Below, in pieces: positions 1 to 48,662 of a stretch of 49,797 bases of DNA (the first letter of the stretch is position 1; the number at the start of each line of letters is the position of its first letter). Position numbers and translations under genes: made by a program. The notes under the pieces are model-generated. The model had not been told where the DNA came from. It searched no databases and worked only from the letters and a program-made list of their open reading frames with translations. Source of the stretch: a virus; IMG/VR virus record IMGVR_UViG_3300027754_000140, positions 1 to 49,797 of that record; one strand, given 5' to 3'.

Positions 1-846
1 TTTTACAACATGGAATCAATCCAGTCCAACAATAACCAAAACTGCTCCAGATGGAACTTTCTTGTCTGCTGTATTTCAACCTCACTCGCTTAATGAAAAT
101 GGTCATGCTGGTGGTAGTGGAGGTGCGGCGGGAAATGGAATTGCAGTATACCCTGCTAGTGCAGAATTTGATGGAGGCACTGGTGGCGACGGTGATTGTG
201 ATTATTCTGTTGGCACTTTGTCGGGAGGAACTGCGGGAACAGTTTCTAATTCTGGAAATGGAGGTTTTGGTCAGTCTTTTTTTGAAGGAAATACTACCTG
301 TGGATATTATTTATATGGTTCTGGTGGTGGTGGTGGAAGGGGTGGATATTCAGGTGAATTTATTTATTTAAACATTAAACAATACTTTGAACCAAGTATT
401 AATACTATTGTTCAACTAGTAGGAGAAAATGGTTATATTGGTGGAGATTCAGGAAATTGTTATTTTGACAGTATTGATTATTTTTACGGAGGCACTGGTG
501 GCGATGGCGGGGCTGGTGGAAACGGGGGAGTTTTAGTAGTAAGAAAACCAATAGAAGCCATTATAAGTTGTGACGTATATGGGGGTGATGTGGGTGATTA
601 TGGTCTTGATGGCGGGGCTGAATTTACTCACTCTTGTTATGAGGACTATTCGGGTCATAATGGACAAACCGGCAATACTGGTAACGCTGGAACTGTAACA
701 TTTCTTAACAGTCTATGAAAAAATATATTACAATTATCGGTCTCGCTATTGCGGGAGTTATTCACGCACAAGATGCTGCTACTAACGATGTGCCAGTTGT
801 TGCACCGCTTCCACAAATTGTTGTGGAAACGAAGACTATCATCAGC
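1..846. repeat. left copy of imperfect terminal repeat (pairs with 48952-49797)
   Basis: Aligned by eye, this block matches 48952-49797 base for base at a constant offset of 48951 with no insertions or deletions. About 35 substitutions fall between roughly 128 and 730; the first 127 and last 116 bases are identical. It covers most of the glycine-rich adhesin and the start of the next small gene. The simplest reading is the two ends of a circular or terminally redundant genome that carry different alleles of the adhesin. A tandem gene duplication cut by the window edges would look the same. Confidence 0.9.
2..718 (+). CDS. glycine-rich adhesin-like protein, 5'-truncated allele 1
   Basis: This is the 3' part of the gene seen complete at 48659-49669; the frame is open from the window edge, so the start is missing only because of the edge. 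The protein alternates Gly-rich stretches (GGSGG, GSGGGGGRGG, GGDGGAGGNGG) with short non-Gly segments. This layout recalls the receptor-binding gp38 adhesins of T-even phages, where Gly-rich strands hold variable loops; that is analogy, not shown homology. Relative to the other copy the changes sit in the intervening segments (for example NGYIGG versus NGHTGG, GGFG versus GGSG), while Gly runs are kept. The stop overlaps the ATG of the next gene (715). Confidence 0.6.
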   Translation, partial: FTTWNQSSPTITKTAPDGTFLSAVFQPHSLNENGHAGGSGGAAGNGIAVYPASAEFDGGTGGDGDCDYSVGTLSGGTAGTVSNSGNGGFGQSFFEGNTTCGYYLYGSGGGGGRGGYSGEFIYLNIKQYFEPSINTIVQLVGENGYIGGDSGNCYFDSIDYFYGGTGGDGGAGGNGGVLVVRKPIEAIISCDVYGGDVGDYGLDGGAEFTHSCYEDYSGHNGQTGNTGNAGTVTFLNSL

Positions 847-1032
847 ACCAACACAGTTACTCGTGCCGAACCTATTAACCTGACTGATGCCCAATTCGCT
901 GGGATTATCGCAATGGTACAGGGTGCTGGCATTAACGCTAATGTGCCAATCACTACGGATAATCTTCGCTCCGTAATGGTTCGCAAGAACCCTGCTGGTG
1001 GATTTACTGTTTACATTCAAGTCAAACCATGA
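715..1032 (+). CDS. small exported protein (105 aa)
   Basis: The N-terminus is a typical Sec signal peptide (Lys-Lys, then a hydrophobic run, ending near Ala-Gln at residues 19-20), so the mature part of about 85 residues should be periplasmic or surface exposed. The mature part has a proline/valine-rich linker followed by a segment with Thr/Val repeats and a short C-terminal beta-like end. I do not recognise a family. The ATG overlaps the stop of the adhesin gene by four bases, and its own stop overlaps the start of the membrane protein at 1029, so it is translationally coupled between adhesin and lysis genes. A partial second copy starts at 49666 and differs by Thr6Ser. Confidence 0.7.
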   Translation: MKKYITIIGLAIAGVIHAQDAATNDVPVVAPLPQIVVETKTIISTNTVTRAEPINLTDAQFAGIIAMVQGAGINANVPITTDNLRSVMVRKNPAGGFTVYIQVKP

Positions 1033-1202
1033 ACGATCACAAAGGTCTTTTAGGCACTGGAGTTACAGCAATATCAGCCCTTACTTCAATTTTACCAGTA
1101 GTCAATTTGCTTGTGCAAATCGGTGCTGGTATAATGGCAATAGTCGTGGGTTTCTATACTGCGCGCTATTACAGAAACAAGTACATAGAAGATAGGAAAT
1201 AA
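1029..1202 (+). CDS. small membrane protein, holin candidate (57 aa)
   Basis: The 57-residue protein starts at an ATGA overlap with the previous stop. It has a short polar N-terminus, then about 35 mostly hydrophobic residues (roughly 7-43) that could form one or two membrane segments, and a basic C-terminal tail (Arg-Tyr-Tyr-Arg-Asn-Lys). Size, topology and position directly before another holin-like gene and a spanin-like pair suggest a holin or antiholin. There is no family motif, so the role is inferred from context. The next gene begins one base after its stop. Confidence 0.6.
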   Translation: MNDHKGLLGTGVTAISALTSILPVVNLLVQIGAGIMAIVVGFYTARYYRNKYIEDRK

Positions 1203-1203
1203 T

Positions 1204-1422
1204 ATGATTAGCTGGATTAACGTAAATACACTACAAGGTATCCTCCGTGCTGTATTGGCATTTGTGGGTGGTATCCTTGCATCTAAAGGCAAGATTACCT
1301 CAGATCAGGCTGCGTCTCTTACGGCACAACTGACTGACCCAGCTTTCCTTGGCACGGGAATTGCTACTATTACTGCTGTCTGGTCTGTGCTGCATAAGCA
1401 AACGCCTGTTGCGCCTAAGTAA
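1204..1422 (+). CDS. putative holin (Pam3-gp28-like)
   Basis: The 72-residue protein has a short N-terminus, a hydrophobic Gly/Ala segment ending in GGILASKGKIT (about residues 13-31), a polar stretch, and a second hydrophobic segment ending in WSVLHK. From memory this arrangement matches the small Pam3-gp28-type phage holins (Gly-Gly hydrophobic segment, KG motif, C-terminal WS motif). A holin would form inner-membrane lesions at the end of infection. It is packed between another small membrane protein and the spanin-like pair. I cannot run a profile search, so the family call is moderate. Confidence 0.65.
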   Translation: MISWINVNTLQGILRAVLAFVGGILASKGKITSDQAASLTAQLTDPAFLGTGIATITAVWSVLHKQTPVAPK

Positions 1423-1425
1423 TAT

Positions 1426-1650
1426 ATGACGATAGCTGGTGGTATCATAGAGATTATTGTACTGCTACTGCCAGTTATCTTAACAGCTATTGCGGCACAT
1501 AATACAGTAGAAGCCAAGAAACAAAAAGCTAATGAAACAGTCGACGAAGCTATTGTTAACGGCGATACTGATGTTATCAACACTATCCTGCGTGATAGGT
1601 TGCAAGACTCGAGTGGTAGTAATACCAGCGGACCGAGAAGTAAGATTTGA
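1426..1650 (+). CDS. Rz-like inner-membrane spanin candidate (74 aa)
   Basis: The protein has one N-terminal hydrophobic segment (about residues 4-24) followed by a charged, probably helical part of about 40 residues and a Ser/Gly-rich tail. That is the topology of an i-spanin, anchored in the inner membrane with the body in the periplasm, although it is short for the class. The strongest support is that the next gene, a lipoprotein, starts inside it in another frame (1532), the embedded Rz/Rz1 layout of many phages of Gram-negative hosts. It would help fuse inner and outer membranes at lysis. Confidence 0.55.
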   Translation: MTIAGGIIEIIVLLLPVILTAIAAHNTVEAKKQKANETVDEAIVNGDTDVINTILRDRLQDSSGSNTSGPRSKI

Positions 1651-1726
1651 CGGAACCAATTACATCGTTCCCAAAGCGGTAATGATGGACTTGATGCACA
1701 AACTAAATGCCGTAACAAACAATTGA
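1532..1726 (+). CDS. Rz1-like outer-membrane spanin lipoprotein (64 aa)
   Basis: The N-terminus is a lipoprotein signal peptide: Lys near the start, a Leu-rich core, and the lipobox Val-Ile-Gly-Cys with the lipidated cysteine at residue 24. The mature part begins KTRVVVIPADREVRF, a pattern I associate with phage lysis lipoproteins that carry a VxVPADR motif. The gene starts in a different frame inside the preceding Rz-like gene and runs 76 bases past it. I infer an o-spanin in the outer membrane acting with the 1426-1650 product. No endolysin lies beside this cassette. Confidence 0.65.
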   Translation: MKQSTKLLLTAILMLSTLSCVIGCKTRVVVIPADREVRFDGTNYIVPKAVMMDLMHKLNAVTNN

Positions 1727-1793
1727 AGTTGGCTGAAAAGGTAGGGTCTTTTGTTGTTTCTCCCCTGCTCGTGTAAGCCAACATTTAACGAAT

Positions 1794-2660
1794 ATGCCAG
1801 AACAAACTTATCCACCATATGTCTCAGGTTCAATAACTGTACCGAGGCAGCTTAATCGTTGGTTGGATATTAACCCACAGAATGGGTTCTTGTCCCGTAC
1901 TAGTACTGTCATTACTCTCCCTGCGTTTACTACTGAAAATAGCTGGAATGGGTACTCCAATATTGTATCGTCGTTTAATATCGAATCTCCTAATGCTATT
2001 TCGTTAAAGCCATTTACTGCTCCTGCTAATCCTAACTACGTATTGTGCGTATCGTACCGCATAGGTAATGTCGTAACACGTTACATGATATGGGATGCTA
2101 CTGGCTCTGTTATGAGTCAGACTATTTCTTTCTACACAGGGCAGCCTCTGAAGAAAAACTTTAGGTTTGAGATTTGGAATACTTCACAGGGCGTAGCGTC
2201 ACAAGCTACTGCTGTTACTATCTATACTAGCAAAGCTGGTACTGTGGATTACCGATGGGGTGACGATACCACTCTCGTTGGCAATGATGGACAGATTACT
2301 AACTTTAACGCAACAGTTTCAGTTGTTGGTTCTATTATTGTTGCAGGTGCGGGTGAGCCATTGGCAAATGGTGTTTATGTACCTAGGGTTATTTCTAATC
2401 AATGGATTAGTCCTACCGGAGATTTTATCTTATTTAAAACTCCTACTTCTGGTAGTAATGCACTATACTCTATACGATTGTTTACTAATAATAACGTTCT
2501 GTATATTGTTACACCTCCAACATCATTACCCATCGGTTCATTAACATGGGCGTTATCTACTTTTGGAACAGCACCAGCTCCTACAACTACTCAACCATCA
2601 GTAGCTAGCTTTAATGTACCTGTAACATTTCCAACAACTTCCGTTTCAACAACTAATTAA
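1794..2660 (+). CDS. putative tail or appendage protein (288 aa)
   Basis: The protein is rich in Thr, Ser, Val and Tyr with few charged residues and reads as almost all beta structure, typical of phage tail appendages. It has no signal peptide. The last 25 residues are a Thr/Pro/Val-rich linker. I do not recognise a domain. It heads the block of tail genes after the lysis cassette, 11 bases before the next beta-rich protein. The start has no Shine-Dalgarno; the leader at 1728-1782 has 7-base inverted arms (GTTGGCT and AGCCAAC). Confidence 0.6.
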   Translation: MPEQTYPPYVSGSITVPRQLNRWLDINPQNGFLSRTSTVITLPAFTTENSWNGYSNIVSSFNIESPNAISLKPFTAPANPNYVLCVSYRIGNVVTRYMIWDATGSVMSQTISFYTGQPLKKNFRFEIWNTSQGVASQATAVTIYTSKAGTVDYRWGDDTTLVGNDGQITNFNATVSVVGSIIVAGAGEPLANGVYVPRVISNQWISPTGDFILFKTPTSGSNALYSIRLFTNNNVLYIVTPPTSLPIGSLTWALSTFGTAPAPTTTQPSVASFNVPVTFPTTSVSTTN

Positions 2661-2671
2661 TTAATTAATTT

Positions 2672-4075
2672 ATGCCTAATGCAACTGATCTATTGGTGGG
2701 CTTTGATCCCACTGGTTATACCTCTATTACCGGAGCGCAACTCGCTCAACTTGTAAACTCCGCCACTCCTACTAGTGATCGTGGGTTTGTTCTTCAGACT
2801 ACCGATTCTGGTGCGGGTGACCCTGATGTTCCCAACGCGGCTGGTACTGTCGCATGGCAGCGTTATGTTTGGCTGCGTGTTTCTGGTACTAGTGTTACTG
2901 CTTATTTGTGGAATAACAATGGCTCTAATAGCAACTACGTCAACCCCAATACTGGTACTGTTACCTCTTTGCTGCTGTGGCAAACCATCTCTAATTCATC
3001 TATTGCTCCTGGGCAGATTACTGGCACGATGATAGCGGCTGGTACTATTACGGCGCTTAACTTGGCATCTGGAAGTATTCCTAGCTCATACATTACTGGC
3101 GGTGTTCCTTCTGATTGGGTGTCTACTGCACAGGGAGATGGTAAGTTGATCAAGAGTGATTCTCCTATTTACGGAGCTATTACTGGTACTATCAACGCTA
3201 CTGTTTTTGGTGACCAGTCTGTGTCTGGTGACTCCGTTGCACTTGCTGGACAGATTGTTGACGGAAGTGTGTATGGATTGCAGTTAGCTGATAACACCAT
3301 TAAAACTGAAAAGCTGTTTACTAACAGCGGTTCTACTTATGCTAACGATAATCCGTATACTAGCACAGAGGCTGCTGTTGATCCCGGTGTTAACATCACA
3401 GTTCCTGATAAATCAATAGTCGGTATTCCTGCGTCATCTAACTACAATCCGTCTACTGGTAGTGCTACTGTACCAGGAGATTTGTTAGCAGTTACTTGTG
3501 ATAGCTCAGGCTACCCTACTGGTTATGCTACCATTCGTCGTGCTATCACGACTCTCGCAGAACCTACTGTACAGACTAGTCCTAGGGTTCCATACGTGAC
3601 TACTGGTGCTATTGTCTACACGTTTGAAAATCCACAGAGCAAGAAGTTTGGGTTGGTGCAACAGCAGGGTTTTAACTCTGTTGTTACTTCTACAGCTATT
3701 GCTACAGCTACATCTGACTTGTCTACGCTGGTGTACAATACTGCTAACTTACAGGATATTACTAGCGTTGCACTTAGTGTAACTACAGATGCTAGCTACC
3801 ATTTGATATCTGTTGTTGGTTCTATGTTTCAGTCTGGTACATCATATGGTTGGGTTTATTTGTATAAAGCAACCGGAGGAGCTTCTCCTATTGCTGCAAT
3901 TCGAATTGCAAACGGTGCTGGTAGTAATTGTTCATACTCGTTTGCTCTTAACTTCAGGGTTGCAAATACAGGAACTGCCGCCGTTACATACTACGCAAAA
4001 TACGGAGGTTCTGTAAACAATAAAGTATCCGCTAACGGTGATACTGCGTCAATGACCGTAATCGAAACTTTGTAA
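2672..4075 (+). CDS. putative tail fibre/appendage protein (467 aa)
   Basis: The first 90 residues form a small beta-rich unit (a phrase like QTTDSGAGDPDVPNA, then a WxRY/WLRV stretch and TVTSLLLWQ) of a type common at the start of fibre proteins. A middle region repeats short turns (APGQITGTMIAAGTITALNLASG-like, a pattern known from trimeric fibre shafts). The C-terminal 150 residues look like a compact beta domain. Charged residues are scarce. The preceding 11 bases are TTAATTAATTAATT-like with no Shine-Dalgarno. I infer a virion appendage; receptor binding is possible but not shown. Confidence 0.6.
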   Translation: MPNATDLLVGFDPTGYTSITGAQLAQLVNSATPTSDRGFVLQTTDSGAGDPDVPNAAGTVAWQRYVWLRVSGTSVTAYLWNNNGSNSNYVNPNTGTVTSLLLWQTISNSSIAPGQITGTMIAAGTITALNLASGSIPSSYITGGVPSDWVSTAQGDGKLIKSDSPIYGAITGTINATVFGDQSVSGDSVALAGQIVDGSVYGLQLADNTIKTEKLFTNSGSTYANDNPYTSTEAAVDPGVNITVPDKSIVGIPASSNYNPSTGSATVPGDLLAVTCDSSGYPTGYATIRRAITTLAEPTVQTSPRVPYVTTGAIVYTFENPQSKKFGLVQQQGFNSVVTSTAIATATSDLSTLVYNTANLQDITSVALSVTTDASYHLISVVGSMFQSGTSYGWVYLYKATGGASPIAAIRIANGAGSNCSYSFALNFRVANTGTAAVTYYAKYGGSVNNKVSANGDTASMTVIETL

Positions 4076-4079
4076 TAAT

Positions 4080-5069
4080 ATGAGTGTCGCGTACATTCTA
4101 TCACAGGCTGGGGCTAAGATGGGTCTTAACCCAGCTGACACCAACGAGCGTCCAGTCCTGCTTCGTTTCTTGAACGAGGCTGCTGATGAACTGTACGCAC
4201 AATCTGATATGGCTGGGTCATGGATGGAGCAAGCGTTTAAGGTCAATGGTGACCAGACGATTGCTCTACCTCATGACGTAGGCAATATCAGGGCAATGCG
4301 TGAATACCAGTCGCTCATTCCTTGGAACATCCAACAGATGCGTCCGAGGTATAATGTTAGCAACTGGAATGATTTTTGGCGTACGTTTCGTCTCAAAGGC
4401 AAACAGGCGTTAGAGAAAACTATTGACAATCAATCTGTACTTACGTTCAGTACTACGTCACTAGACTCTACTCCCATCACAATAACGGTAACCGGTAAGA
4501 CACCGTACGCTACCTCTATTACCGAAACTATCACACTCAACGCGTTGGCGGTTAGTACCACTAACGACTGGATTGAGGTGACTGCTATCAACAAGTCTAA
4601 TGTTAGTGTTGCTGACATAACTGTCACCGATATTGATGGTACTGTCTTGGCGGTCATTCCGAATAACGAAAAGAACAGCACATACCAGATAGCGGATGTT
4701 AGCACTTGTCCTTGGTTGAACAATAGCCAAAGCAAGCAAGACCATTATATGGAGATTCTTTATAAGAAGAAGCTCGCGTATCTGTCTGCTGATGGTGATG
4801 AGTTCCCTGCACAAGGTTACGATAACGTCGTAGTCAATAAGATGCTTCAGTTGTGGTTTGAAGAACAGGGTAAGATTGATCTTGCGATGCAGTACGATGC
4901 AAAAGCCACACGTTCGCTAGCTCGTAAGCACGAAGAAGAGAACCGCGCTACACAAGACACCGTTGCATTTACTGAGAACACTCACGATAACTTGAATCCT
5001 CGTGTTCGCGCTCGTCGTCCTGCTCGTTATGGCGGTTATTCCACAACTCAACGCTATGGAGTAATGTAA
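4080..5069 (+). CDS. head-to-tail adaptor-like protein (329 aa)
   Basis: The N-terminal part (ILSQAGAKMGL..., RFLNEAADELYAQSDMAGSW) is helical and resembles the P22 gp4/T7 gp11 kind of adaptor that sits below the portal. Residues about 118-215 are a Thr/Ile/Val-rich beta insertion of immunoglobulin-like character, which smaller homologues lack. The C-terminus returns to helix and ends in an Arg-rich tail. The stop overlaps the next ATG (TAATG), coupling it to the nozzle-like protein, the usual neighbour of this adaptor in short-tailed phages. The family call rests on pattern and gene order. Confidence 0.55.
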   Translation: MSVAYILSQAGAKMGLNPADTNERPVLLRFLNEAADELYAQSDMAGSWMEQAFKVNGDQTIALPHDVGNIRAMREYQSLIPWNIQQMRPRYNVSNWNDFWRTFRLKGKQALEKTIDNQSVLTFSTTSLDSTPITITVTGKTPYATSITETITLNALAVSTTNDWIEVTAINKSNVSVADITVTDIDGTVLAVIPNNEKNSTYQIADVSTCPWLNNSQSKQDHYMEILYKKKLAYLSADGDEFPAQGYDNVVVNKMLQLWFEEQGKIDLAMQYDAKATRSLARKHEEENRATQDTVAFTENTHDNLNPRVRARRPARYGGYSTTQRYGVM

Positions 5070-6823
5070 TGTCTGAATATAATCAACAATCTTTCATCGG
5101 TGGGATGAACTTGCTCGTAGATGATACTAGGTTACAACCTAACCAGTATCGTCTAGCGTTTAATTGTCATAATCGTTACGACGTATTAGATCCTGTGTTG
5201 ACTTCTGTGAAGGACTTGTATGTACCGCAGGGGTTAAAGCAAGAGATGGTTACATTTGGTGATTACTTGATAATCTTTGTAGCTGGTAAAGCGTATTACA
5301 GAAGATACGACACACCCACGTGGTCATTGATTCCTGAGTTTTCGATGTCTACTGTTGCTCCTCGTTATTGGACTGCTGCTGTACCTGTGTCGGTTACTAA
5401 TTATGGCAGGATTAACAAAACTGTACCATATGGTACTTCTAATACACCAATAGGTTCTTCGTTAGCTGGTGTAATATCGACACAATCAATAGCTGGTTCT
5501 TTTGCGGGTACTTTGCCAGGATTGTTGGTGCAAGATAACATTAACCAACCACAGTTTATTTACTTGGATACTGCTGGTAATCCTAGATGCCGTATTACAC
5601 AACGATATAACGAATGGGTTGCTACATATGGTGATGAGTACGGAGAGGATGATTACGGAAGACTGCTAGTTGACAAACGTGAATACGTACCGATTGGTAA
5701 CGTAATGGCGTGGGTTGATAGTATTCTGTATATCACAGCACAAGACGGAAACTCTATATATCGTTCTGTGTCTGGTCGTCCTCTTGACTTCATGGTCAAC
5801 GTTGACACAGCTGGACAACCAGGAGGTGACGCTACTACCACAGCGTATACTGTCGGAGTGGGTAATATTAGCTGTCTGTACCCGATGAACGATGGTACTT
5901 TGTTTGTGTCTGCTGGTAACTCAAACTTTGTGGTATCAAAGAACATGAGTAACATCGCACCTACGATGTTTGGAGAGTTCTTGTTCATACGCAAATTTCT
6001 ATTTGAAGCTACGTGTTTGAACGATCGTTGTATCATTGACTCTCTTGGAGATACTAAGTTTATTGACTTGACTGGTGTACGTTCATTTAATGCGGTAGTG
6101 CAAGAACATAACGAAGGTCGTAACTCAGTATTTACGTCTACTATTGCAGCTGCGTTTAAGGGTATTATTCAAGATTACGCCGCTGCTATTCTGTATAACA
6201 ACTTTGAAATGTATGGAGTCAATACTATCTTCGGTCCTGCTATTGCTGTGTTTGATACCATTACCGGAACTTGGACATCATTTGATACTAAACAAACTGG
6301 CGGCAAAAAGATTAAACAGTTCGCTAAGATTGAACTTGGCACACAACGTTTGTTTGCTATTACGGAAGATAATCAGTTGTACACGCTGTATGCAGGTCCA
6401 ACATATGATGAAGCCTCGTTCTTAACTCTTGGTATCTCGGCGGCTGAGTTGTCACAGAATGGTCGTATTGCTAATCCTAAGAACGAAATTAAGATGACGG
6501 ACTTTCGTGCGATATTGAACCGCATTACTCAGACATCTACCATGTCTGTGCAACCGTTTGTTAATAACAGACTATCGGTAAACTCTCCGATTGTAATCAA
6601 GAGTATTAAGTACTCTCCGCCTGATCTTGTATACACAGGCAATATACCAGATTTAAATACGCAACTTACCAACGTATACTATACATTTCCTAATCTGGAA
6701 CAAGGGTGGAAAGTTGCGTTGATTGTATCGTGGACTGGTGGTGGTTCGTTAACTCAGTTCTCTGCTAACTTAACTGACGTTACACCTATGAACCCGCTCC
6801 GTTCGCAGACCTCAGTAACATGA
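5069..6823 (+). CDS. tail nozzle/hub-like protein (584 aa)
   Basis: The start SFIGGMNLLVDDTRLQPNQYRLAFN is typical of a widespread podovirus family that forms the tail nozzle, with repeated beta segments read as a propeller (compare P22 gp10 and T7 gp12). Length is in the usual range for these proteins. It overlaps the adaptor gene upstream by one base and the 124-aa gene downstream by four bases (ATGA). It should extend the tail channel from the adaptor. I see no enzymatic motif. Confidence 0.6.
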   Translation: MSEYNQQSFIGGMNLLVDDTRLQPNQYRLAFNCHNRYDVLDPVLTSVKDLYVPQGLKQEMVTFGDYLIIFVAGKAYYRRYDTPTWSLIPEFSMSTVAPRYWTAAVPVSVTNYGRINKTVPYGTSNTPIGSSLAGVISTQSIAGSFAGTLPGLLVQDNINQPQFIYLDTAGNPRCRITQRYNEWVATYGDEYGEDDYGRLLVDKREYVPIGNVMAWVDSILYITAQDGNSIYRSVSGRPLDFMVNVDTAGQPGGDATTTAYTVGVGNISCLYPMNDGTLFVSAGNSNFVVSKNMSNIAPTMFGEFLFIRKFLFEATCLNDRCIIDSLGDTKFIDLTGVRSFNAVVQEHNEGRNSVFTSTIAAAFKGIIQDYAAAILYNNFEMYGVNTIFGPAIAVFDTITGTWTSFDTKQTGGKKIKQFAKIELGTQRLFAITEDNQLYTLYAGPTYDEASFLTLGISAAELSQNGRIANPKNEIKMTDFRAILNRITQTSTMSVQPFVNNRLSVNSPIVIKSIKYSPPDLVYTGNIPDLNTQLTNVYYTFPNLEQGWKVALIVSWTGGGSLTQFSANLTDVTPMNPLRSQTSVT

Positions 6824-7194
6824 GTAAACCAGTAACACTTGGACAGCTAGTTGAGTATGTCCTAAAGTACCGTAAGGGTAATGCATTCAAAGACCACCTT
6901 GAACATCAGATAGCAAGTGGCATAAAACTTGCTTCTGATAGTTGTGTTATGCTGTACTGCTGTCGTGATGATGGTACAGTATGCGGGATAATAACCTGTT
7001 TTGAAGACGCAAAGAATAAAGTAATGTATGTCAATGATGCGTTGACTACTGAGAAGTGGGTTTTGCCAAGATTTGTAACATACTTTAAGCATACATATCC
7101 TGATTATATATTGGCGGCAAGACGTAAAGATAACCAAGTAGTATACGAAAAAACAGACAAACTTTGTAATAGACTTATGAAAGGTAAAATTTAA
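6820..7194 (+). CDS. small protein next to tail genes, possible GNAT-like fold (124 aa)
   Basis: Mixed alpha/beta protein with several cysteines (DSCVMLYCCRDDGTVCGIITCF). The central strand pattern followed by a helix and a short C-terminal strand is reminiscent of the small acetyltransferase-like proteins that sit between tail and internal virion genes in T7-like phages, but no acetyl-CoA loop is clear. It starts at an ATGA overlap with the nozzle gene and ends one base before the next ATG. Treat the fold as a guess. Confidence 0.5.
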   Translation: MSKPVTLGQLVEYVLKYRKGNAFKDHLEHQIASGIKLASDSCVMLYCCRDDGTVCGIITCFEDAKNKVMYVNDALTTEKWVLPRFVTYFKHTYPDYILAARRKDNQVVYEKTDKLCNRLMKGKI

Positions 7195-7195
7195 T

Positions 7196-7693
7196 ATGGG
7201 ATCAGCAAGATCAGCACTAATGGGTTCTAGCAGCCCAGGAAACGGACAAGCTCCGTATTTAACTAACCCTAATGCTGGGCAGACTTACTACGCGGATGCT
7301 CTTGATCCAATGGCTAACTCTCCGTTCACAGCTAAGGATGCAAAAAATCCTAATGCCGCTGCTAAGTATGCTCAGCAAGCTGCTCTTAAGCCTACTAATA
7401 TTGGGATGACTACTCCCAACTTGTTCAAGCCTTACGAACAATATATGCCCGCAGAATACGCTGGGTCTTCTCCTGTTCAAGATCCTACTGCTATATTACA
7501 AGCGTATGCTCAACATATGCCTGATTTTATGGCTGGTTCTAAGTCAATGTATCAGTATAAAACTCCTGAACAAATTAACAATCCTAGCTATGTTGCTCCA
7601 AGTTCAAGTAGTGGGTTCTTAGGATCACCGTTTGCTTACGCCATTCCTGGTGTTCAGCAAGTAGCTTTAGGTAAACAATGGTCTGGTAAATAA
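7196..7693 (+). CDS. Pro/Ala/Gln/Tyr-rich virion-associated protein (165 aa)
   Basis: A low-complexity protein rich in Ala, Pro, Gln, Tyr and Asn with phrases like NPNAGQTYYADALDPMA and YAQQAALKP. It shares the LQAYAQHMPDF/LQSYAQYLPGL type of segment with the following gene (residues about 100-115 here, 14-26 there), suggesting related ends or a common partner. No signal peptide or enzyme motif. It lies at the head of the internal-virion block. Confidence 0.55.
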   Translation: MGSARSALMGSSSPGNGQAPYLTNPNAGQTYYADALDPMANSPFTAKDAKNPNAAAKYAQQAALKPTNIGMTTPNLFKPYEQYMPAEYAGSSPVQDPTAILQAYAQHMPDFMAGSKSMYQYKTPEQINNPSYVAPSSSSGFLGSPFAYAIPGVQQVALGKQWSGK

Positions 7694-7706
7694 CAAATAA
7701 TTTATT

Positions 7707-8909
7707 ATGGGCGGAGGAATTTCAACACCTAAACCGGAGTCAATGGCTCAAGTACTGCAATCGTATGCTCAGTACTTGCCAGGACTTGTATCTGCTACCG
7801 CTGCACAACAGCCAGGGATTGCACAGAATCAGCTTAATGCTACTCTGGCTACACAGCCGTTGTACAATGCGCTTAACTTGCAACAGGCACAACAATATGC
7901 AGAACCACTTGCCCGAGTAGGACAAGATGTAACGCGTAGTAATGCACTTGCTGGTGGTCAAACTCAGCTAGCGCAGATGCGCAATACTGGCGTAGATACT
8001 GCGCGTACGGCTGATGCTATTGCTCGTGCTGCTAACCCGAACTACTACAGAGTTCAGGATGCTTCTTCTCGTCAAGCTCAGAATATGCTGAATTCCATTA
8101 ACTTGGGAGGTCTTAGCCCAGGTGAGGGTAATGCTCTAGAACGCTCCACCAATCAGCAACAAGCTGCTACTGGTAACTTGGGTATCTATAACCCTACGAA
8201 CACCATCTCTAACGCGATGAACTTTGGTGATCGTTATAACCAGAAAATAGGACAGTTAGGTCAGGCTCTTGGGGCGGCTAATCAAACTGCTACTAGCGCA
8301 CAGAATACTGGGTTTAACCCCGTGAACTTGGCTATCGGACAACCTAACTCATCTACGATGGGTAACTTTGGTACTGGTACGTTCTCTAACACTAATGCTG
8401 GAACTCAGAACGCTTCTGGTCAAAACGCGTTTGGGTTTGGTCAAGGTGTAATGGGTAATATGTCTAGCATGAACAATGCCTTCACAGGAGCCGCTGCTCA
8501 ACAGTCTGCTGCCAGTACTGCTGCGATGGGTCAAATGGCTAGCGCTGGTGCTAGTGCTGTTTGTTGCTGGATATTCATGGAAGCGTATAAGGGATTGATG
8601 CCTAAGTTTGTGCGCTCCTCACGTGACTGGTACTACGTCGCTAAACCTGACATGGCTACTGGATATCGTCGTGTTGCTTACTGGCTTGTTCCTGCTATGC
8701 GTCACTCTGCTACTGTGCGTTGGTTGGTGTGGAACCTAATGGTGTCCCCTATCACGCAGTACCTCGGTGCTGTTAACAAGCAGAAAGGCTATAAGCGTAC
8801 TGCATGGAACAAAGCGGTCACTAGGTTCTGGCTTACTAGCTGGACTAAGCTGGGCAAGGGACATACCGAAGCCGAGTACTTGAAACTGTGGATGGTTAAA
8901 ATAGCATGA
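7707..8909 (+). CDS. internal virion/ejection-type protein with C-terminal CCWIFMEAY module (400 aa)
   Basis: Residues 1-280 are an Ala/Gln/Asn/Gly-rich, low-charge region likely to be flexible or helical. The last ~115 residues change sharply to an aromatic and basic composition starting CCWIFMEAYKGLMP, then SRDWYY, YRRVAYWLVPAM and PITQYLG. This module resembles the Cys-rich 'CFI/CWI...RD' C-terminal region seen at the ends of various phage virion proteins; its function is not known to me. The gene overlaps the next start by four bases (ATGA). It probably belongs to the complex ejected with the DNA. Confidence 0.55.
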   Translation: MGGGISTPKPESMAQVLQSYAQYLPGLVSATAAQQPGIAQNQLNATLATQPLYNALNLQQAQQYAEPLARVGQDVTRSNALAGGQTQLAQMRNTGVDTARTADAIARAANPNYYRVQDASSRQAQNMLNSINLGGLSPGEGNALERSTNQQQAATGNLGIYNPTNTISNAMNFGDRYNQKIGQLGQALGAANQTATSAQNTGFNPVNLAIGQPNSSTMGNFGTGTFSNTNAGTQNASGQNAFGFGQGVMGNMSSMNNAFTGAAAQQSAASTAAMGQMASAGASAVCCWIFMEAYKGLMPKFVRSSRDWYYVAKPDMATGYRRVAYWLVPAMRHSATVRWLVWNLMVSPITQYLGAVNKQKGYKRTAWNKAVTRFWLTSWTKLGKGHTEAEYLKLWMVKIA

Positions 8910-9346
8910 GTGGACTAATCGGAACTTTAATGTCAGGCGGTACCAGCTTAGTAGCTGACAAGATGCAGCAAAAAGCTGAGGACAAATTTAAGAAATCACC
9001 AATCGGTAAGATTGCTGATGAAGGTATTGGCGGTTTTTTGGAAGAAAGGTGGAATAAGTCTGGCATTGGTAGTGCTGTTAATGATGTTAAAGATTACTTT
9101 AGCTCACCGCCTTCTCCTACTCCGCAGACAATGGGAGACTATAAGGCTGCAGGTGGAATAATGGCGGGTCCTACTGTTCCACCTCCTGCTGATTTTAGTA
9201 ATGTAAAGTTACAGTACTCTGATCCTAATAGTATGCAGTTACAATCTGCAGGTTCTCCTTTACCAAATTTAACACAGCAAGGTTCTATTGATGCGCTACT
9301 CGCTAGCCCAACATGGCAACAAATAATAGCTAAAACTCAACAATAA
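8906..9346 (+). CDS. unknown virion-region protein (146 aa)
   Basis: The N-terminal half is helical and charged (DKMQQKAEDKFKKSPIGKIADEGIGGFLEERW), the C-terminal half is Pro/Ser/Gln-rich and probably disordered. The ATG overlaps the preceding stop (ATGA), and one base separates its stop from the next gene. Position among the internal virion genes suggests a small virion component or assembly partner. I do not recognise it. Confidence 0.5.
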   Translation: MSGLIGTLMSGGTSLVADKMQQKAEDKFKKSPIGKIADEGIGGFLEERWNKSGIGSAVNDVKDYFSSPPSPTPQTMGDYKAAGGIMAGPTVPPPADFSNVKLQYSDPNSMQLQSAGSPLPNLTQQGSIDALLASPTWQQIIAKTQQ

Positions 9347-9347
9347 T

Positions 9348-10514
9348 ATGCCAGGATTTTTAACAGATTTAATTAGTGACGTTGGTCACGCAGCGTTCAA
9401 TCCAGAAAACTATCGTAACAAACCTGTATACGATGCCAACAATAACATCACCGGATTTATTGACTCAGAGGGCAATCCTACTAATAATCCAATGAGCCGT
9501 CCTGGGCTCGGTATGCGTATACTGGCTCCTTCTGATACCGCTAATCTTTACAAGTTTAACCAAGACTACGCTGCTGCTCCTGTCAATAGCGCACAGCAGA
9601 GGGAGATGGCTACTAAAGCATTTCAGAATGATACTAGTAATACCATGGGTCGCATGGGAACATACGGCGGAGCTACTGGTAATGCTCAACGTGGATTGTA
9701 TGGTACTGGATTGATGGATCCTAGTAAAATAAAAGCAGGAAATGAATTAGGTGCTGAAGAAGCTATTTCTAATTTTTATAATACTCAAGCTCGCGGTTCT
9801 GACTTTGCTAATACTAACGCACTTAACTTTAATAAGTCACTCAACGAACAAGGTGTTCCTGAGGCTGAAGCTACTAGCAAAAAAGCTGCTGCAGAAGCGG
9901 CTACTGCACAATCTGGTGCTCAAATTGACGAAGCTAAGTTAGCACAGATTGCTGCACAGTATAAGATGACCCCAGGGATGCAGAGTATTCTTAAAGATAC
10001 TTTGAAACAGACTGGTGTAAATGCGCTTGCTAATTCTAGGTTAGTTGATGACCCCACTAGCGGACATTTATTCTTGAATACTTATGATCCAGCTACAGGC
10101 GCTACAACTAGAACTGATCTTGGACTTAGACCTTCTGCTAGCGTGATGGAAAAAGGTATGGAGGGCGCAACTGATCAAACTTTACAGTTGCCAGGTGGAG
10201 GTGCGGTAGTAATACCTCGTTCAACGACTGTTGGTGGTACTCCTCGCAATGATGCGGAAGCCGCTAAAAAAGCTGCTGCCGATAAAGAAGCTGCTGATAA
10301 AAAAGCTGCTGATAAGGCTGCTGCTGCTAGAAAACTTGTGACAACGTTGCCGTCAACTGCTGGTGAATCTTTGTTTGGGAAAAATAATAATCCAGTAGCT
10401 AGTGCAATTAACACAGCATCACCCGTTCTACGTAAACTTTTTGCTAAATATCCAGGAGATTTACAGGGCGCTATTAACGCTAGACAATACTCTCAAAACT
10501 ATCGTCCTTATTAA
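9348..10514 (+). CDS. internal virion-type protein (388 aa)
   Basis: The protein has a short structured start, an Ala/Asn/Thr-rich middle and, at about residues 300-330, a lysine-alanine helical repeat (EAAKKAAADKEAADKKAADKAAAA, a coiled-coil or DNA-contacting tract). The C-terminus is basic and Tyr-rich. The composition and place immediately before the giant polyprotein fit an internal virion or ejection protein. No catalytic motif seen. Confidence 0.55.
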   Translation: MPGFLTDLISDVGHAAFNPENYRNKPVYDANNNITGFIDSEGNPTNNPMSRPGLGMRILAPSDTANLYKFNQDYAAAPVNSAQQREMATKAFQNDTSNTMGRMGTYGGATGNAQRGLYGTGLMDPSKIKAGNELGAEEAISNFYNTQARGSDFANTNALNFNKSLNEQGVPEAEATSKKAAAEAATAQSGAQIDEAKLAQIAAQYKMTPGMQSILKDTLKQTGVNALANSRLVDDPTSGHLFLNTYDPATGATTRTDLGLRPSASVMEKGMEGATDQTLQLPGGGAVVIPRSTTVGGTPRNDAEAAKKAAADKEAADKKAADKAAAARKLVTTLPSTAGESLFGKNNNPVASAINTASPVLRKLFAKYPGDLQGAINARQYSQNYRPY

Positions 10515-10516
10515 GT

Positions 10517-13500
10517 ATGCCAACACAACGCGAACTTACACAAGAAGAATTAAATCATCTATCCTCGCAGGGGGTAGATATTTCTAATTTACAAGGCGTT
10601 CCTGTTACTGTCGAATCACCAGAGGAAGTTGCTGCTCGTCAGCCTAATACTTCTGCCCTTGCTGCTGGTGCACGTGCTGGGTTAGCTGGTGCTTTACCAG
10701 CTTTAGCTGGTGGTTTTGCTGGTGGTGCTGCTACTGGTGCGTTAGAAGGTCTTGGTGCAGGTCCGTTTGGCGCCGCTGCTGGTGGTATTATTGGCGGTAT
10801 TGGTGGTGCTATCACCGCTGGTTTGGCTCAAAATGCGTTGATGCCAGACACGTGGAAACAGAAGATGGCTCAAGACCAACAGGAACATCCGTGGGCTACT
10901 ACTGCTGGCTCACTTTCTACTATGGCTCTTGGCGGCTTTCGTCCTTCTGCGGACATCCTTAAAGCTGCGCGTGCTCCTATCTCTAAGTTAACTCTTGGAG
11001 AAGTGTCTGCTGCTGAAAAAGAAGCACTCAAAAACGTATCACTTGGTGCGGGTATTGGTGCAGGTACTGGCGTTGCGTCTGAATTGTTGACTGGCAATGA
11101 AATAACTCCTGGAAGTGTAGCAGAAGCTGCTGGTACTGGCGCGGTGTTTAATCGTCCTTGGGCGCTTGGTCATGCGATGGGATTTGCTCCTCATGTTGGA
11201 GAGCCTACCGCTGCTGATTTTGCTACGTTGTTGAATAAAAACAAAAAGAATATTGTTAGTAACGAACAGGAAAAGAAGGCTCCTGCTGCTCCTTCAATGA
11301 GTCCTGAAGAAGCTGCTAAAAGGAAGCGTGAATTTGAGTTGGCTTATGAAGAAAACAAAATGCTTGACATGGTCGAAGCTCAGAAAAGATCTGAAGCTGC
11401 CGACAAAGCTGTTGATGTTGCTAAGACTGCACAAGACCTGCAAGCTGGTACTTTGCAGGCTGACATTGGTCAAATGCAGCCTAATGTTCCCTTTGGTAAG
11501 AAGCAAGGTTCTACCAGAATTCCGTTCAAACAGCAAGCCGTAAGACCTCCTGAAAGCGCGGAAGACTTTCAGCAACGTTTAGAGGAATGGAAAGCTGCTG
11601 GTAGTATTCCAGAAGAACGTCCTCGTTATGAGACTGCCGAAGAAGCGGCTGTTCCGGAAACTAAGCTAGAAACTCCTGCTCAAGACGTAGATACTTTCTT
11701 GGGCTCTAAGTCTCGTGTTGAGATGGCTGAGTTGCTGAGTCAACTGGATGCAGAAAACACCCTAACTCCTCAGCTTTACAAATACATTAGCGAGAAGTTT
11801 TTGAAGCCTAAAGGATGGGATGTCAGTATTGCCAAAGACCTCAAAGCTCTTGGAGAGTTTAGCCCTTCAAAGCAGACTATCAAAGCGCGCGGAACTGTGG
11901 CTTACGACGAAAAAGGAAAGCCTATAGTTGAAGGCGGCGCTCCTGCTGCTCTTGATACGTTGCCACATGAAGGTGCTCATGGTTTGTGGGATAGACTTAC
12001 TGCTGACCAAAAAGCGTTGTATGCTCGTCTTGCCGCTCCTGACATTGCAAAGCAGAACGAAGCTCGTGCTAAACAAAATGCTATCAACGAAGAGAAGAAT
12101 AAGACCCTTCCTCCTGATAAACAGCTGCCCATCTATGACTTGTATGAACCTGCAAGTTTCATGGATAAGAACGGCAATCTAGTACATGATCCTTTGGCGG
12201 GCATTGAAGAACACTTTGCATCAGAATCAGGACGTCGTATTGTTAACCGTATATTGACTGAGAATCCTACATGGGGTAGGTGGTGGAAAGATATCAAAGC
12301 TGGTGCTAAAGTTAAGTACGGTAAAGAACCCAGCCTTAACGACTTCTATCGTCAACAAGCTGCCATCCTGACATCAGGCGGTGGTAAGGGAATTGGTACT
12401 GTTAACGTGCAGGGAGGTACTGTTGAAAGACAGATGAGCGAAGCTGAGGGACGTATTCCTCTGCGTGAGATGACTGCTGAGCAACGTAGAGAATATTACA
12501 GGAATGTTCCTTCTGCATATAAATCTCAGAAATCTCCTGAGATGTTAGCTATCTTGGAAGAACAACGTAAGAGGGATCTTGCTCGTCAACAGGTACAAAA
12601 CCCCGGTGTTGAGATGTCTCCTGCGCGTAGAGAACAGATCTTGAATGAAGTGTCAGAACTTCATAACGCTGTTGAAAGCGCAGTCAGCAAGTCAACCAAA
12701 GCTAAGTTAAATAGCAGAATTAAACTGCTAGAGTCACGGCTTGGTACGCAGCCTTTGTCGCAGGAACAGATTGAGCTACCTGAGTTTAGACAATCTGGTG
12801 CTCATCCTGCTGCTAGAGATTTGACTGCAAGACAGTTGAACGAACAGGTATCTCCTGAAAAATCAGAAGTACCTACTCGTACTCCGTATACTACTCCTGT
12901 TACCGGTGATGTTGTTGTCACAGACCCAGAGACTGGAGAAAAGACATTGCAGAGAAACGTCATCAAAACCACAGCAGGAGAGATAGTTCCTGACGAAAAT
13001 GCTATCATTGAGAAAGCTGTCAGGTCACGTTATGGCAAGTTGATGGGTGGTAACTTAGGTAATCCTGGCGTTATTGCGTCAGAACGCGTCAAAGCTGCTG
13101 GCAGAACTCCCGCTCCTACACAAGCTCGTATTCCTGCTAACAGTTTGGTCGCTCCTAAGATCATGTTTGGTGATGAGATAGCAGATGCTATTGCCTATAC
13201 CAAAGGTGAAATGGCAAAGCGCGGTCTATTGCCAGGAGAAACTCGTGAACAAGCTATCTTTAATACTGCTGCTAACTTAGCACATGAACACTTCAATATG
13301 GTGTCTCAGTCTGAGAAGGGTGGCGTAGGTAAAGCTGCGAAGACTTCTGAAGAAAAAGAAGCTGACTTGATATTCAACAACCCTGAGTCTACTGCTGCAC
13401 AGAAGGCTGAGGCTGAAGCTATCATCAAGGCGGGGCGTGAACGTCGTGGTGCTGTGTCTAGAACATCACTTGAAAAACCTACTGGCGGTGAAGGAGATAA

Positions 13501-16500
13501 AACTCTTGGTGACTTTATTCCTGCTACTACTGACGCCGCTAAACCTACTCCTGAACAACTTGCCAGCCAAGAAACTAGTGTTCCTGCGGAAAATGCTGAA
13601 GGCACTAAAGCCTCTGCAAGTGAGTCTGAGTTAAATACCACTCCATTGGAATTGATTGAGCGTATTGAAGGTACGCCCATGAAAGATACCGCTAAGGGCA
13701 AACGTGTAATTGCTTACTTGGAAAGTTTGCAAGAAAATGAGCCTATTGACGCGTTTGAAGTGATGGAGAAGTTTGGTCTGGTTAAGAAAGAACAGACTAA
13801 GGAAGAAGCTGCGTTGATGCATGATATGCATAGTATGTCACTTGGTGATAAACTTGTGCGTGAAATGTCAGAATGGCGTATTCATCAGCCTAGGATCAGC
13901 CATAGTCCAGAAGGAATGAAAAAAGTTGGAGCAGCATCCGCTCGCGGTGTTTATGTTAGTGAGGAAGGTAAAGGATACACTAGCGAAATAAACGATAATG
14001 ATACAGCTACTCATGAAACTGTTCATGCATTCTTTGACAACCACCGTATTCCCTTTAATTTATTGGTTAAAAGTAGCGGAGTTACTTCTGCTGATTTAAC
14101 CCAGATGGCTAATGTACTAGATCTTAGTGGTTATCCGCATCATTATAGGAATCTTATTACGTTAGCTGACAAAGCTAGGAAGACTGGTTATGGTAAAGAC
14201 GAAGCCATTCCTAAACAGTACCTGACCGATGAATGGACACACGCTGTAGGTAAAGCTACCGAAGAATACTTGGCTCAAATTACTGATCCTCTAAATCAGA
14301 ACTCTTTTCCTCGAACAGGTGTTAACCGCATCATGGGTGATAAGTTCTTGGAAGCGTTTGATAATGTATTCCATGGTGAAGGTGCTGGACGTGCTAAGTC
14401 TGTTAAGGGCAAAGCTGAGTACTATCAGACAGAAGAAGAAGGTGCATTGCCTGAGGGTAAGTATACGTCATCTCTTGCCTCTGGACGTTTGCTGGAAGAC
14501 CGCGCTAGGTTTGCTAACAATCCTAATGCTAAGTTCATGTCTAAACAATCGTTCATTGCTCGCATGAATAAAAACGTGCCTGATGACGAAATGAAAGCAC
14601 TTAATGACGCTGGGTTTGACAAGTGGCTTGCAAGCAAACATGAGACCATTAACCTAGATGAAGCTCAGCAATGGATCAAAGACAACGGCACTGCTATTGA
14701 TAAGCATGCCTATGGCTTGACTAATCCTAGCAAAGCTGAAAAAGAACATGATCGTTTAAGTCACGAATGGTTTGATAATTTATCCCATGAAATGAACCAA
14801 AGATGGTATGAAGTGCAGAACCTATTTAATGCTGATGATGATGCTGATCAAATAAACGTAGATGAGTTTCTGAAAAAATTGCAGGAACGTAAATCTTGGC
14901 AAGGCAAAAGTAAAGACTTACAACAAGCTCGTAAATTCATAGAGTCTTATAAGGAGTTTCGAAAGGAGTTTCGAAATGAAGTAGAGCCAAAAGCTAAGTC
15001 AATTTATACTAAGATTTCTGCATTTCCTACAGAATCAGGTATGCCAAGATGGACTACTTCCAAGTTGCCTGAGAATCTGCAACGTGTTGATTTGGTATTG
15101 AGAGGCGATAAACCTATCTTTCTTAAGAACTCAGGTCATGAACATTTTGACAACACAATTGGATGGGTAACTTTGCAATATAAGACTGGGCCTAATGGCG
15201 AAAAAATTGCAATGGTTGGAGAAGCTCAAAGTGATCCTGCTCAGAGAATCCAACGTGCTGCTAAAGAGATAGATAATTACATAATAGTAAAAACAGAATA
15301 TGGGTTTAAAATAAAATCTAAGAAATCAAGAGAAAATGATTTTGTAGATGTATACAAAACAAAAGAAGATGCTCTCGCTGCTTTAAATGGTATATTTAAA
15401 GGCGCACACCATGTAGTAGAGCATCCTGTTCTAAATCATTATAATCGTTTATTGGTAAAAGCGGCTATTGAACAAGCACGTAAAGAAGGTGCTACTCATA
15501 TTGCTATTGCTGATGCTGAGACTGTAATGATGTCAGAATATCATGACCGTCGTTTGGCAACTATCTATCCTGATGGGCGTGATCCAGAAGGAGGTTTGAT
15601 CGGTAAAGAGTTAGAAAACACTCCTGCTTCAGGAGATACTATTCAAAACTTTACAGATCGTATGTCTGATAAATATGGTATAAAGTTTTACAGCAATGAG
15701 AGTGGTATAAAAGATGGTTTTCAGTACTTTGTTGGAGGTAAAGTGGATCCAGCTACTAGAGTCACTGATGAATATTTTCTGTTCAAAGTAAAGGTAGTAG
15801 AGAAAATAAAGCAAGAAGGCGGTATGCGTACTAATTACGATACTGTGTTGCCCAACATTGCGGAAAATCTGACTGGCAGTAAAGGCCAACGCATGAGTCT
15901 TGGTAAACATAAAAACGCGTATACTGATTCTCAATATGTTGCTCCTAAACTTCGCAATAATTTAGTATTCAAGAATCCAGACGGCACACCTAAAACTGAC
16001 GTAACCGCCAGGGTTTATCCGTTAGATAAAGTGTCCGCTCGTCTTGAGCAGGAACCGTTCACTACCTACGGCAAATACCAGACAGAAGAAGAAGGTGCGC
16101 TTCCAGAGAATACATTCTCTAAAGAAGACAAGAAGTTCACGCTTGCTCGCGCTTTGTTGACAGAAGCTCAACTTGATAAAGCACGTAGACTTTCTGGCGC
16201 CAATGGTAAGCCAGTTGCTGATGCTATTCAAGCGTTCTTCCCGTTGCGTGAACAGTACTTTGGTAAGTACGCAGCGAAGCCGCTAGACATTCTGGACAAG
16301 ATGTCAATGGTAGACCGCAAGTCTGTGGCTAACGTGATGTACCGCGAAGACTTGGATGGCAAATCTTACAGGAATAAGCTGCCAGAAGGTGTGCAACGCG
16401 TAGCGTACGATGCTATTCGTGAAGCCCTTAACTTGAAGCAAAACGACCTCATCGCTTCAGGGCGGACTATCCGTGTAATGAACAGCGAAGGCAAGATTGA

Positions 16501-18475: not shown

Positions 18476-19314
18476 ACAAATGGACAATCAAAGAACTTAG
18501 CAGACAAGTTCATGTAATAGAGTGGAACGTGGATAAGACAAGCGAGGAGTGTACTGTACTCCTCATGTCTGATGAACATTGGGACAATAAAGAATGTGAT
18601 AGAGACCTACTGCGTAGGCATCACGAAGAAGCGGTAAAGAAGGGTGCGCCTATCCTAAAGTTTGGGGATACGTTCTGTGCGATGCAAGGTAAATGGGACA
18701 AACGCGCTGACATGAATCAGTTGCGCCCTGAACATCACACGAACAAATACTTGGACTCGTTGGTCAATACAGCTACCGAATGGTATAAACCATACAAAGA
18801 TAACATTGCGCTAATCACCCCAGGAAATCATGAACAGTCGATACTCGATAGACATGAGACTGACTTGATTGACAGACTCACGTCCCACTTGGGTACAGCA
18901 AAGGGTGACTATTGGGGATATGTGCTGCTACGTATAAAATCAAAAGAAAGAATCCAGACTCACGTACTGCATTATCATCATGGGTATGGCGGTGGTGGTG
19001 AAGTAACGCGTGGTATGATCGACAATAACAGAACTCGTGGACAGTACGATGCTGACCTATTCTACTCTGGTCACATTCACAGAAGGAACTACGACGAGAA
19101 CGTAATGACTACTGTCACTCCAAAGGGTAGGCTTACACAGCGTACCCAAAGGTTCCTGCGCGGCTCAGCCTACAAGAATGAAACTCGTGGCTGGCACGCG
19201 TCAGGAGGTAGGGCGGGAAGACCACTCGGAGGATGGTGGGTTACTATCAGGGATAAGAACGTCAACAGAGAAGAAGGTCACCAACTGCTAGTGACCTGTA
19301 CTCCTGCTACTTAA
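18472..19314 (+). CDS. calcineurin-like metallophosphoesterase (280 aa)
   Basis: The five motif blocks of the family are visible in order: the first metal block SDEHWD (near 34), GDTF (near 65), GNHEQ (near 117), HHGYGG (near 165) and GHIHRR (near 197). The last two His motifs complete a two-metal site. Family members hydrolyse phosphoester bonds in nucleic acids, nucleotides or phosphoproteins; the substrate here is unknown. It starts at an ATGA overlap with the giant protein and ends tail-to-tail with the leftward helicase-like gene, with 8 bases shared. It is the last rightward gene. Confidence 0.75.
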   Translation: MNKWTIKELSRQVHVIEWNVDKTSEECTVLLMSDEHWDNKECDRDLLRRHHEEAVKKGAPILKFGDTFCAMQGKWDKRADMNQLRPEHHTNKYLDSLVNTATEWYKPYKDNIALITPGNHEQSILDRHETDLIDRLTSHLGTAKGDYWGYVLLRIKSKERIQTHVLHYHHGYGGGGEVTRGMIDNNRTRGQYDADLFYSGHIHRRNYDENVMTTVTPKGRLTQRTQRFLRGSAYKNETRGWHASGGRAGRPLGGWWVTIRDKNVNREEGHQLLVTCTPAT

Positions 19315-34198: not shown

Positions 34199-34371
34199 AG
34201 TGATAGTTGATGTTTGAGGGATTTAATATCTTGTAAGATACGGAAGAAATTGCCTCTGAAGTTACACCAAATTTGTCCTTTGTCATCTTGAGATAGAACA
34301 ATTTGCTGTCCTGCTTTTAGGTCAATGAGTGTCAATGGTAACTTATCATCTCTTATAATAGATATTTTCAT
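34195..34371 (-). CDS. unknown 58-aa early protein
   Basis: MKISIIRDDKLPLTLIDLKAG opens a beta-rich protein with the segment GQIWCNFRGNFFRILQ and a basic tail. Its ATG overlaps the previous stop (34368-34371) and its stop overlaps the next ATG. Small, unrecognised early protein, possibly one that acts on the host. Confidence 0.55.
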   Translation of the reverse strand: MKISIIRDDKLPLTLIDLKAGQQIVLSQDDKGQIWCNFRGNFFRILQDIKSLKHQLSL

Positions 34372-34703
34372 ATCTCAATTCCTTTCACTTTTGCCAATGC
34401 CGCGACACGCTGTTGCCATGTGGCAGACAAAGTAGTGTAAGGATTGCATAATTCAAACAATCTGTTTTCAAACAGATTATAGGCTTGTTTGTCGTTTTCT
34501 ATCAAGACTTTCTCCACCAGCCAGCACAGGTGCAGGAGTTCGGTGTCTGAGACTAGGCGATGACCACCAGCGCCAAATTCGGTGTCATAAATGTATAGGT
34601 CGCCATTTTCATAAATGCAGTCTGGCTGCATCTTTGCCAGAGCTTGTTTGAGTTGGTTGTCGGTGTAGTTCATAGTGGTGATATATTCGATTGTTTGGGG
34701 CAT
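34368..34703 (-). CDS. unknown early protein (101-111 aa)
   Basis: Internal ATG at 34673 (MNYTDNQLKQALAKMQPD) is a likely start because the ten residues before it look uninformative; 34703 is the upstream option. The body is helical and acidic (LLHLCWLVEKVLIENDKQAYNLFENRLFEL). Phage-specific by appearance, no family recognised. Confidence 0.55.
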   Translation of the reverse strand: MPQTIEYITTMNYTDNQLKQALAKMQPDCIYENGDLYIYDTEFGAGGHRLVSDTELLHLCWLVEKVLIENDKQAYNLFENRLFELCNPYTTLSATWQQRVAALAKVKGIEI

Positions 34704-48095: not shown

Positions 48096-48662
48096 ATGAA
48101 ACACACCATCCTTCTCCTCCTTGCCCTCGCTCTAACTGTCCATGCTGGCAGCGGATTATCTAGTGGTGGCGGTTCTATCAGCGGTCCTGGTACTGGTGGT
48201 GGTACTAGTGGTACTAACTTCGCTGGAATCCTTGTGACTAACACGGCGTATGCGGCTAACTTTGTTGCTACTGGTACAGGCACAAACGTGTTTGACGTTA
48301 CGTTGTTTACAAATGGTGTCAATGCGTACGTGTCTAGTATTGATACTAACACTGCGCAGATTAACGGTGGCTCAACAAATATTGTGTTAAACACAGTATA
48401 CACAAACGCCAACCAGCGTTCGTTTCTTGTGGGTTCGATTTATGCCATTTGCACAGCAACACTTGATGCTGGAGCAGTTATTTACTACACCAACAATGGT
48501 GTCGCACAAAACTTAAGCATTATTGCTGCACATCATAGCGTGACTCCTGGCACTAATTGGATTCCGTTTACTGTTCCGCTTTCACCTAACGCAACATACC
48601 GCATACAAACTAATGGTATAGGCACTTGCTTTCCTACTAATGTGTTTCTGTGGCGTTTATGA
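48096..48662 (+). CDS. exported Gly/Thr-rich protein (188 aa)
   Basis: Signal peptide (MKHTILLLLALALTVHA), then GSGLSSGGGSISGPGTGGG, the same mature start as the 214-aa protein, and a Thr/Asn/Val beta body with a Pro-rich end. Overlap of four bases with the adhesin gene. The shared GSGLSSGGG start suggests a common processing or anchoring signal. Unrecognised. Confidence 0.6.
   Translation: MKHTILLLLALALTVHAGSGLSSGGGSISGPGTGGGTSGTNFAGILVTNTAYAANFVATGTGTNVFDVTLFTNGVNAYVSSIDTNTAQINGGSTNIVLNTVYTNANQRSFLVGSIYAICTATLDAGAVIYYTNNGVAQNLSIIAAHHSVTPGTNWIPFTVPLSPNATYRIQTNGIGTCFPTNVFLWRL

Follow-up and report, generated by a model that had tools for sequence, protein, structure and literature searches.

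The closest described counterparts of the locus analysed here include phage host-recognition genes. The Salmonella phage S16 carries a T-even-type tail-fibre adhesin, gp38, which folds into a polyglycine sandwich and contains 37 Gly in 73 residues (PMC6851490). Host-recognition modules common to distant phages have been described among Alteromonas phages (PMC10579305), and receptor-binding genes and genomic islands are documented hot spots of viral microdiversity (PMC6832022; PMC6487183). Fragmentation of short-read viral assemblies has been reported at genomic islands and where microdiversity is high (PMC6487183), and metagenomic contigs may carry end repeats of the assembler k-mer length, with 55, 77 and 99 given as examples by the CheckV authors (PMC8116208).

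We analysed the whole 49,797-nucleotide stretch of the IMG/VR virus record IMGVR_UViG_3300027754_000140 (hereafter, the window), whose two ends carry similar but unequal copies of one adhesin-like gene. With good confidence, the window can be read as an essentially complete, closed tailed-phage genome from a mixed short-read metagenome population, opened at a polymorphic gene of which at least two adhesin variants coexist.

The end overlap and its differences

The features of the overlap and of the gene within it are as follows.

1–846, + strand: copy A of the end overlap, comprising the 3′ part of the adhesin-like gene and the start of the next gene; 96% match to 48952–49797
48952–49797, + strand: copy B of the end overlap; 36 substitutions and no indels relative to 1–846
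1–127, + strand: exactly identical lead-in, equal to 48952–49078, with the first difference at 128; its length equals a 127-base assembler k-mer
2–718, + strand: allele A of the adhesin-like gene, of which only the 238 codons at the 3′ side are present, in a frame open from the first bases
48659–49669, + strand: adhesin-like gene, complete ORF, allele B, 336 aa, consisting of a signal peptide, a short leader, an N-terminal part and a Gly-rich C-terminal part

The end-to-end alignment of the two copies is gap-free, with 36 substitutions (95.7% identity), and a search of the whole record returned these two matches only, with no third copy of the overlap. The adhesin reading frame is open in both copies and contains 34 of the substitutions, which fall in 27 codons (20 non-synonymous and seven synonymous); the alleles share 92% protein identity, and silent divergence between the copies is 0.077 over 128–661. 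The original prediction had arrived by hand at about 35 differing bases, about six of them silent, in good agreement with these counts. It had also placed a cluster of changes at 128–643, and clustering is indeed pronounced, with a maximum of 17 differences per 100 bases against 9.5 expected at random (a value of 17 was reached in 0 of 5000 permutations), but the differences extend to 730, the last two (729–730) lying inside the next gene.

The identity of the flanks, claimed at the same time, extends over 127 bases on the left and, after the last difference, over 116 bases up to the right end at 49797. A usual top k-mer of SPAdes-type assemblers is 127, and because the identical run on the left spans exactly this standard length from contig base 1, the left flank is weak evidence and was probably imposed by assembly. 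The natural reading is that it represents a graph node common to two paths, so that the contig would start on one path and finish on the other. Since the contig stops after 116 rather than 127 identical bases on the right, a simple two-path bubble would not account for both ends. The best reading of the opening point of the circular phage genome in the assembly is the polymorphic adhesin-like gene itself.

Two further readings of the differences were not supported. The scarcity of silent changes need not indicate positive selection, since dN/dS over the overlap (NG86) is 0.81, i.e., not above 1, and a neutral simulation puts the share of non-synonymous codons at 71.7%, about the same as the observed 74% (P = 0.42). 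Nor are the changes enriched in non-Gly loops, as changed residues occupy 4 of the 60 positions that contain Gly and 16 of the remaining 178 (P = 0.79, Fisher test). Silent changes are themselves clustered, with none in 2–265 and ten in 266–715 (Fisher P = 0.014), a test weakened by the fact that part of segment 2–265 was probably held identical by assembly. Given this clustering, the dN/dS value and the neutral-like share of non-synonymous codons, the pattern is that of locally divergent sequence, as from recombination, rather than of amino-acid selection alone.

Allele A additionally contains short tracts that match other parts of the same gene.

173–189, + strand: possible donor repeat for tract 488–504; the exact match spans 17 bases and takes in differences 495, 496 and 499
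488–504, + strand: conversion-like tract 1 of allele A, equal to 173–189
608–620, + strand: conversion-like tract 2 of allele A, equal to 503–515, covering differences 609, 613, 614 and 617

Of the 34 differing adhesin sites, 7 lie within such tracts in allele A, whereas allele B has no such tract. At a threshold of 13 bases, set after inspection, none of 5000 random replacements at the differing sites gave seven covered sites, and five of 5000 codon shuffles did. This suggests small intragenic conversions between Gly-rich repeats in allele A, of which we infer both the occurrence and the direction.

Neighbouring genes, relatives and the swap slot

The adhesin-like gene lies between two neighbours and begins with a conserved leader.

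48096–48662, + strand: upstream gene with a signal-peptide-like start; from 48202 onward 93% identical to contig L003, against 77% for the capsid-gene region
48659–48754, + strand: conserved leader, in which a Sec-type signal peptide (MNKLIAILLLSTVTCFA) is followed by some 15 residues with GAMP at their end; kept in L003 and L014
715–1032, + strand: downstream gene with a signal-peptide-like start (MKKYITIIGLAIAGVIHAQ...), directly 3′ of the adhesin-like gene at both window ends and in L014

Within the contig of one distantly related phage, L014 (IMG/VR 3300020044, 39 kb), a 193-aa homologue of 48096–48662 is followed by one 267-aa gene at the slot, then by an 89-aa homologue of 715–1032, an extra 78-aa gene, and the homologue of the window's 57-aa gene with its followers (lysis-type genes). 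As L014 is contiguous here and has a single slot gene, the window ends are neighbours with one gene between them. A second relative, G001 (L003/L006; 3300027754, 47 kb), encodes a capsid protein 79% identical to that of the window, and its contig ends at the equivalents of window positions 48882 and 975, flanking the variable part of the adhesin gene; the gap in G001 therefore contains this gene, inside which its contig breaks.

A third contig, L016 (3300009181, 18 kb), is 100% identical to window 1063–19152 over 18,090 bases, although it may stem from the same or a pooled sample and its identity to the window may not be independent. The backbone thus recurs unchanged in L016, while the adhesin copies differ by 4.3%. 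The break of L016 was considered as evidence of breakage at the adhesin and was dropped, since each end of the contig lies no more than two bases from the edge of an exact match, 124 or 125 bases long, that the window shares with G001; the break is best explained by sequence common to phages, not by the adhesin.

Identity between the window and G001 is 93% over 48202–48882 and 97% over 975–1033, against 65–77% in the tail, packaging and capsid regions and most of the backbone. Likewise, dS is 0.20 in both the N-terminal part of the adhesin and the 57-aa gene, compared with 0.78 in the capsid gene and 1.36 in the holin. DNA similarity between the window and L014 is confined to the adhesin module, the following lysis-type genes and the gene at 18.5–19.3 kb.

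Some further features of the window were noted in passing. An island at 18408–19314 is 92% identical to G001 and 68% to L017, with much other DNA diverged, and it encodes a 280-aa product whose distant matches bear the annotation DNA repair exonuclease or metallophosphoesterase; a short island at 34368–34541 is 95% identical to G001. Next to a Phage_holin_10 gene (1204–1422) lies a small ORF at 1532–1726, out of frame inside 1426–1650, which has a lipoprotein-like start (LSTLSCVIGC) and resembles an Rz1-type outer spanin. The region 10517–18475 is one ORF of 2652 aa with no Pfam match.

Over codons 1–16, which encode the signal peptide, the window and L014 differ by five silent changes and no amino acid, and their leader DNA is 84% identical. 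Behind residue ~32 the two proteins are unrelated (alignment score 62, within the shuffled range, whose maximum is 70), and this part of the L014 protein matches Laminin_G_3 (E = 2.3e-16). At the sequence level, the gene is a swap slot: its signal peptide and first ~32 residues stay constant, but the domain that follows has been exchanged and is Gly-rich in the window and Laminin_G_3 lectin-like in L014.

The adhesin-like protein has no relative in Pfam, PHROG, PDB or the phage collection, and its structure model, built from three sequences, has a mean pLDDT of 27.8, too poor for a fold search. The phage collection also gave no match by tblastn with the adhesin, the capsid protein, the 57-aa gene or the L014 slot gene. 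Scans of viral contigs with the adhesin, the 715 gene, the 188-aa gene and degenerate patterns returned G001 alone or nothing, and scans of genome contigs with the adhesin and the 188-aa protein returned no match, so that no host was assigned. The Gly-rich sequence and the lectin-like domain in the L014 slot suggest a putative role in adhesion, and the same two kinds of domain point to putative host recognition or receptor binding by the slot protein.

Origin of the two variants

In the preferred explanation, the sampled population would hold two or more variants of an adhesin-like protein that is Gly-rich and probably exported, and the assembler, branching at the shared 127-mer, would have begun the contig on one variant and ended it on the other; we infer both the two strains and this behaviour of the assembler from the contig sequence. 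The variants would diverge by localised recombination, through short conversions between the Gly-rich repeats of the gene, and also by cassette exchange between phages. Over the longer term, it would act as a slot whose leader is kept while its binding domain is replaced.

The second allele might instead derive from a co-occurring phage of the G001 kind sharing the adhesin cassette, in which case the contig would be chimeric at one end. The N-terminal part of the adhesin and its flanks are 93–97% identical between G001 and the window, near the 95.7% between the copies, the variable part of the gene is missing from the G001 contig, and the ends of L016 at exact window/G001 matches suggest the presence of both phages in one assembly. 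We nevertheless consider such a donor unlikely, as silent divergence between the copies (0.077) is lower than that between the G001 and window cassettes (0.20), and window 975–1033, downstream of copy A, is not identical to G001.

The original prediction had offered, beside coexisting variants, a tandem pair of adhesins. Coexisting variants of one gene in a self-closing genome agree with both L014 and G001, whereas a true tandem pair in one genome appears very unlikely. Two similar copies do occur in one contig, and an unresolved tandem repeat could yield the same end overlap, but in L014 these neighbours flank a single slot gene, copy B continues into the start of the downstream gene, which would need to be duplicated too, and the exact 127-base lead-in is accounted for by assembly.

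Generation of the variants by a diversity-generating retroelement is more improbable still. The locus resembles the variable proteins of such elements in its local amino-acid diversity toward the protein C-terminus; several changed codons are of the NNT type and altered at positions 1 and 2, and differing sites adjoin one another more often than expected (9 vs 2.1; P = 0.00015). The retroelement hallmarks are nonetheless missing from the record, in which neither a reverse transcriptase (PF00078; control genomes were positive) nor a third copy resembling a template repeat was found. There is also no adenine specificity, with 18 of the 36 differing sites lacking A in either copy, and the changes affect third positions too and spread over ~600 bases.

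Two last readings, that the copies form a true long terminal repeat of the packaged genome or reflect simple sequencing error, are scarcely credible. The copies do sit at the two ends of the contig, but replication normally keeps the terminal repeats of a genome identical, and 36 clustered substitutions without an indel or a stop are not error-like.

The export leader and comparison with known systems

The n, h and c regions of the leader are positive in a crude rule-based test, used in place of a dedicated signal-peptide predictor. Only four of the window's non-overlapping ORFs are positive in this test, all between 46518 and 49669, and one gene among them has no signal-like start; the 715–1032 gene has a signal-peptide-like start by eye, and its L014 homologue passes the test. 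Signal-peptide-like N-termini are thus seen on four or five nearly consecutive genes, which lie between the major capsid gene and the lysis genes, and also in L003 and L014. Among the papers searched, no clear precedent was found for a signal peptide on a phage virion or lectin protein.

A Sec-type signal conserved across distant phages would be unexpected in a virion tail protein, and for this reason a receptor-binding role is proposed here only as putative; the adhesin-like protein may be a receptor-binding protein of the virion or, alternatively, a surface protein that is exported. It is possible, if somewhat doubtful, that the slot encodes exported, non-virion binding proteins, in which case the phage would have the infected cell export a swappable adhesin, lectin-like or Gly-rich, via Sec for secretion or display. 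The slot would then be one of up to five near-consecutive signal-peptide genes located between the major capsid gene and the lysis genes. Why genes next to a phage capsid gene should bear Sec signals is a question that can be tested.

Compared with S16 gp38, the window adhesin likewise has Gly-rich motifs split by other segments and, as among T-even-type gp38 proteins, varies among close relatives. Its Gly content is lower, however, at best 26 of 73 residues against 37 of 73 (PMC6851490), polyglycine II sandwiches being about half Gly, and the structure model is not usable for this comparison. The protein has no sequence match to gp38 in PHROGs, PDB or the phage collection, carries a signal peptide, and shows no concentration of changes outside Gly positions. 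T-even-type gp38 occupies the tip of the long tail fibre, adjacent to gp37, and no gp37-like gene was recognised beside the window adhesin.

The microdiversity hot spots at receptor-binding genes and genomic islands (PMC6832022; PMC6487183) share with this locus a locally raised level of polymorphism within a putative recognition gene, together with assembly breakage, whereas here the polymorphism is seen from the ends of one contig. Mismatched end overlaps of a single metagenomic contig can therefore expose a population's polymorphic locus without reads, with the caution that the "identical flanks" of such overlaps may be merely the assembler's k-mer.

In Alteromonas phages (PMC10579305), host-recognition modules are, as here, close despite diverged or unrelated backbones; the fixed part in the present case is a Sec-type leader, and tail-fibre identity is putative. 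A fixed signal-peptide leader joined to exchangeable binding domains offers a tag for collecting slot diversity among otherwise different phages. Beyond the polymorphic adhesin-like gene itself, the analysis adds a swap slot whose export leader is conserved.
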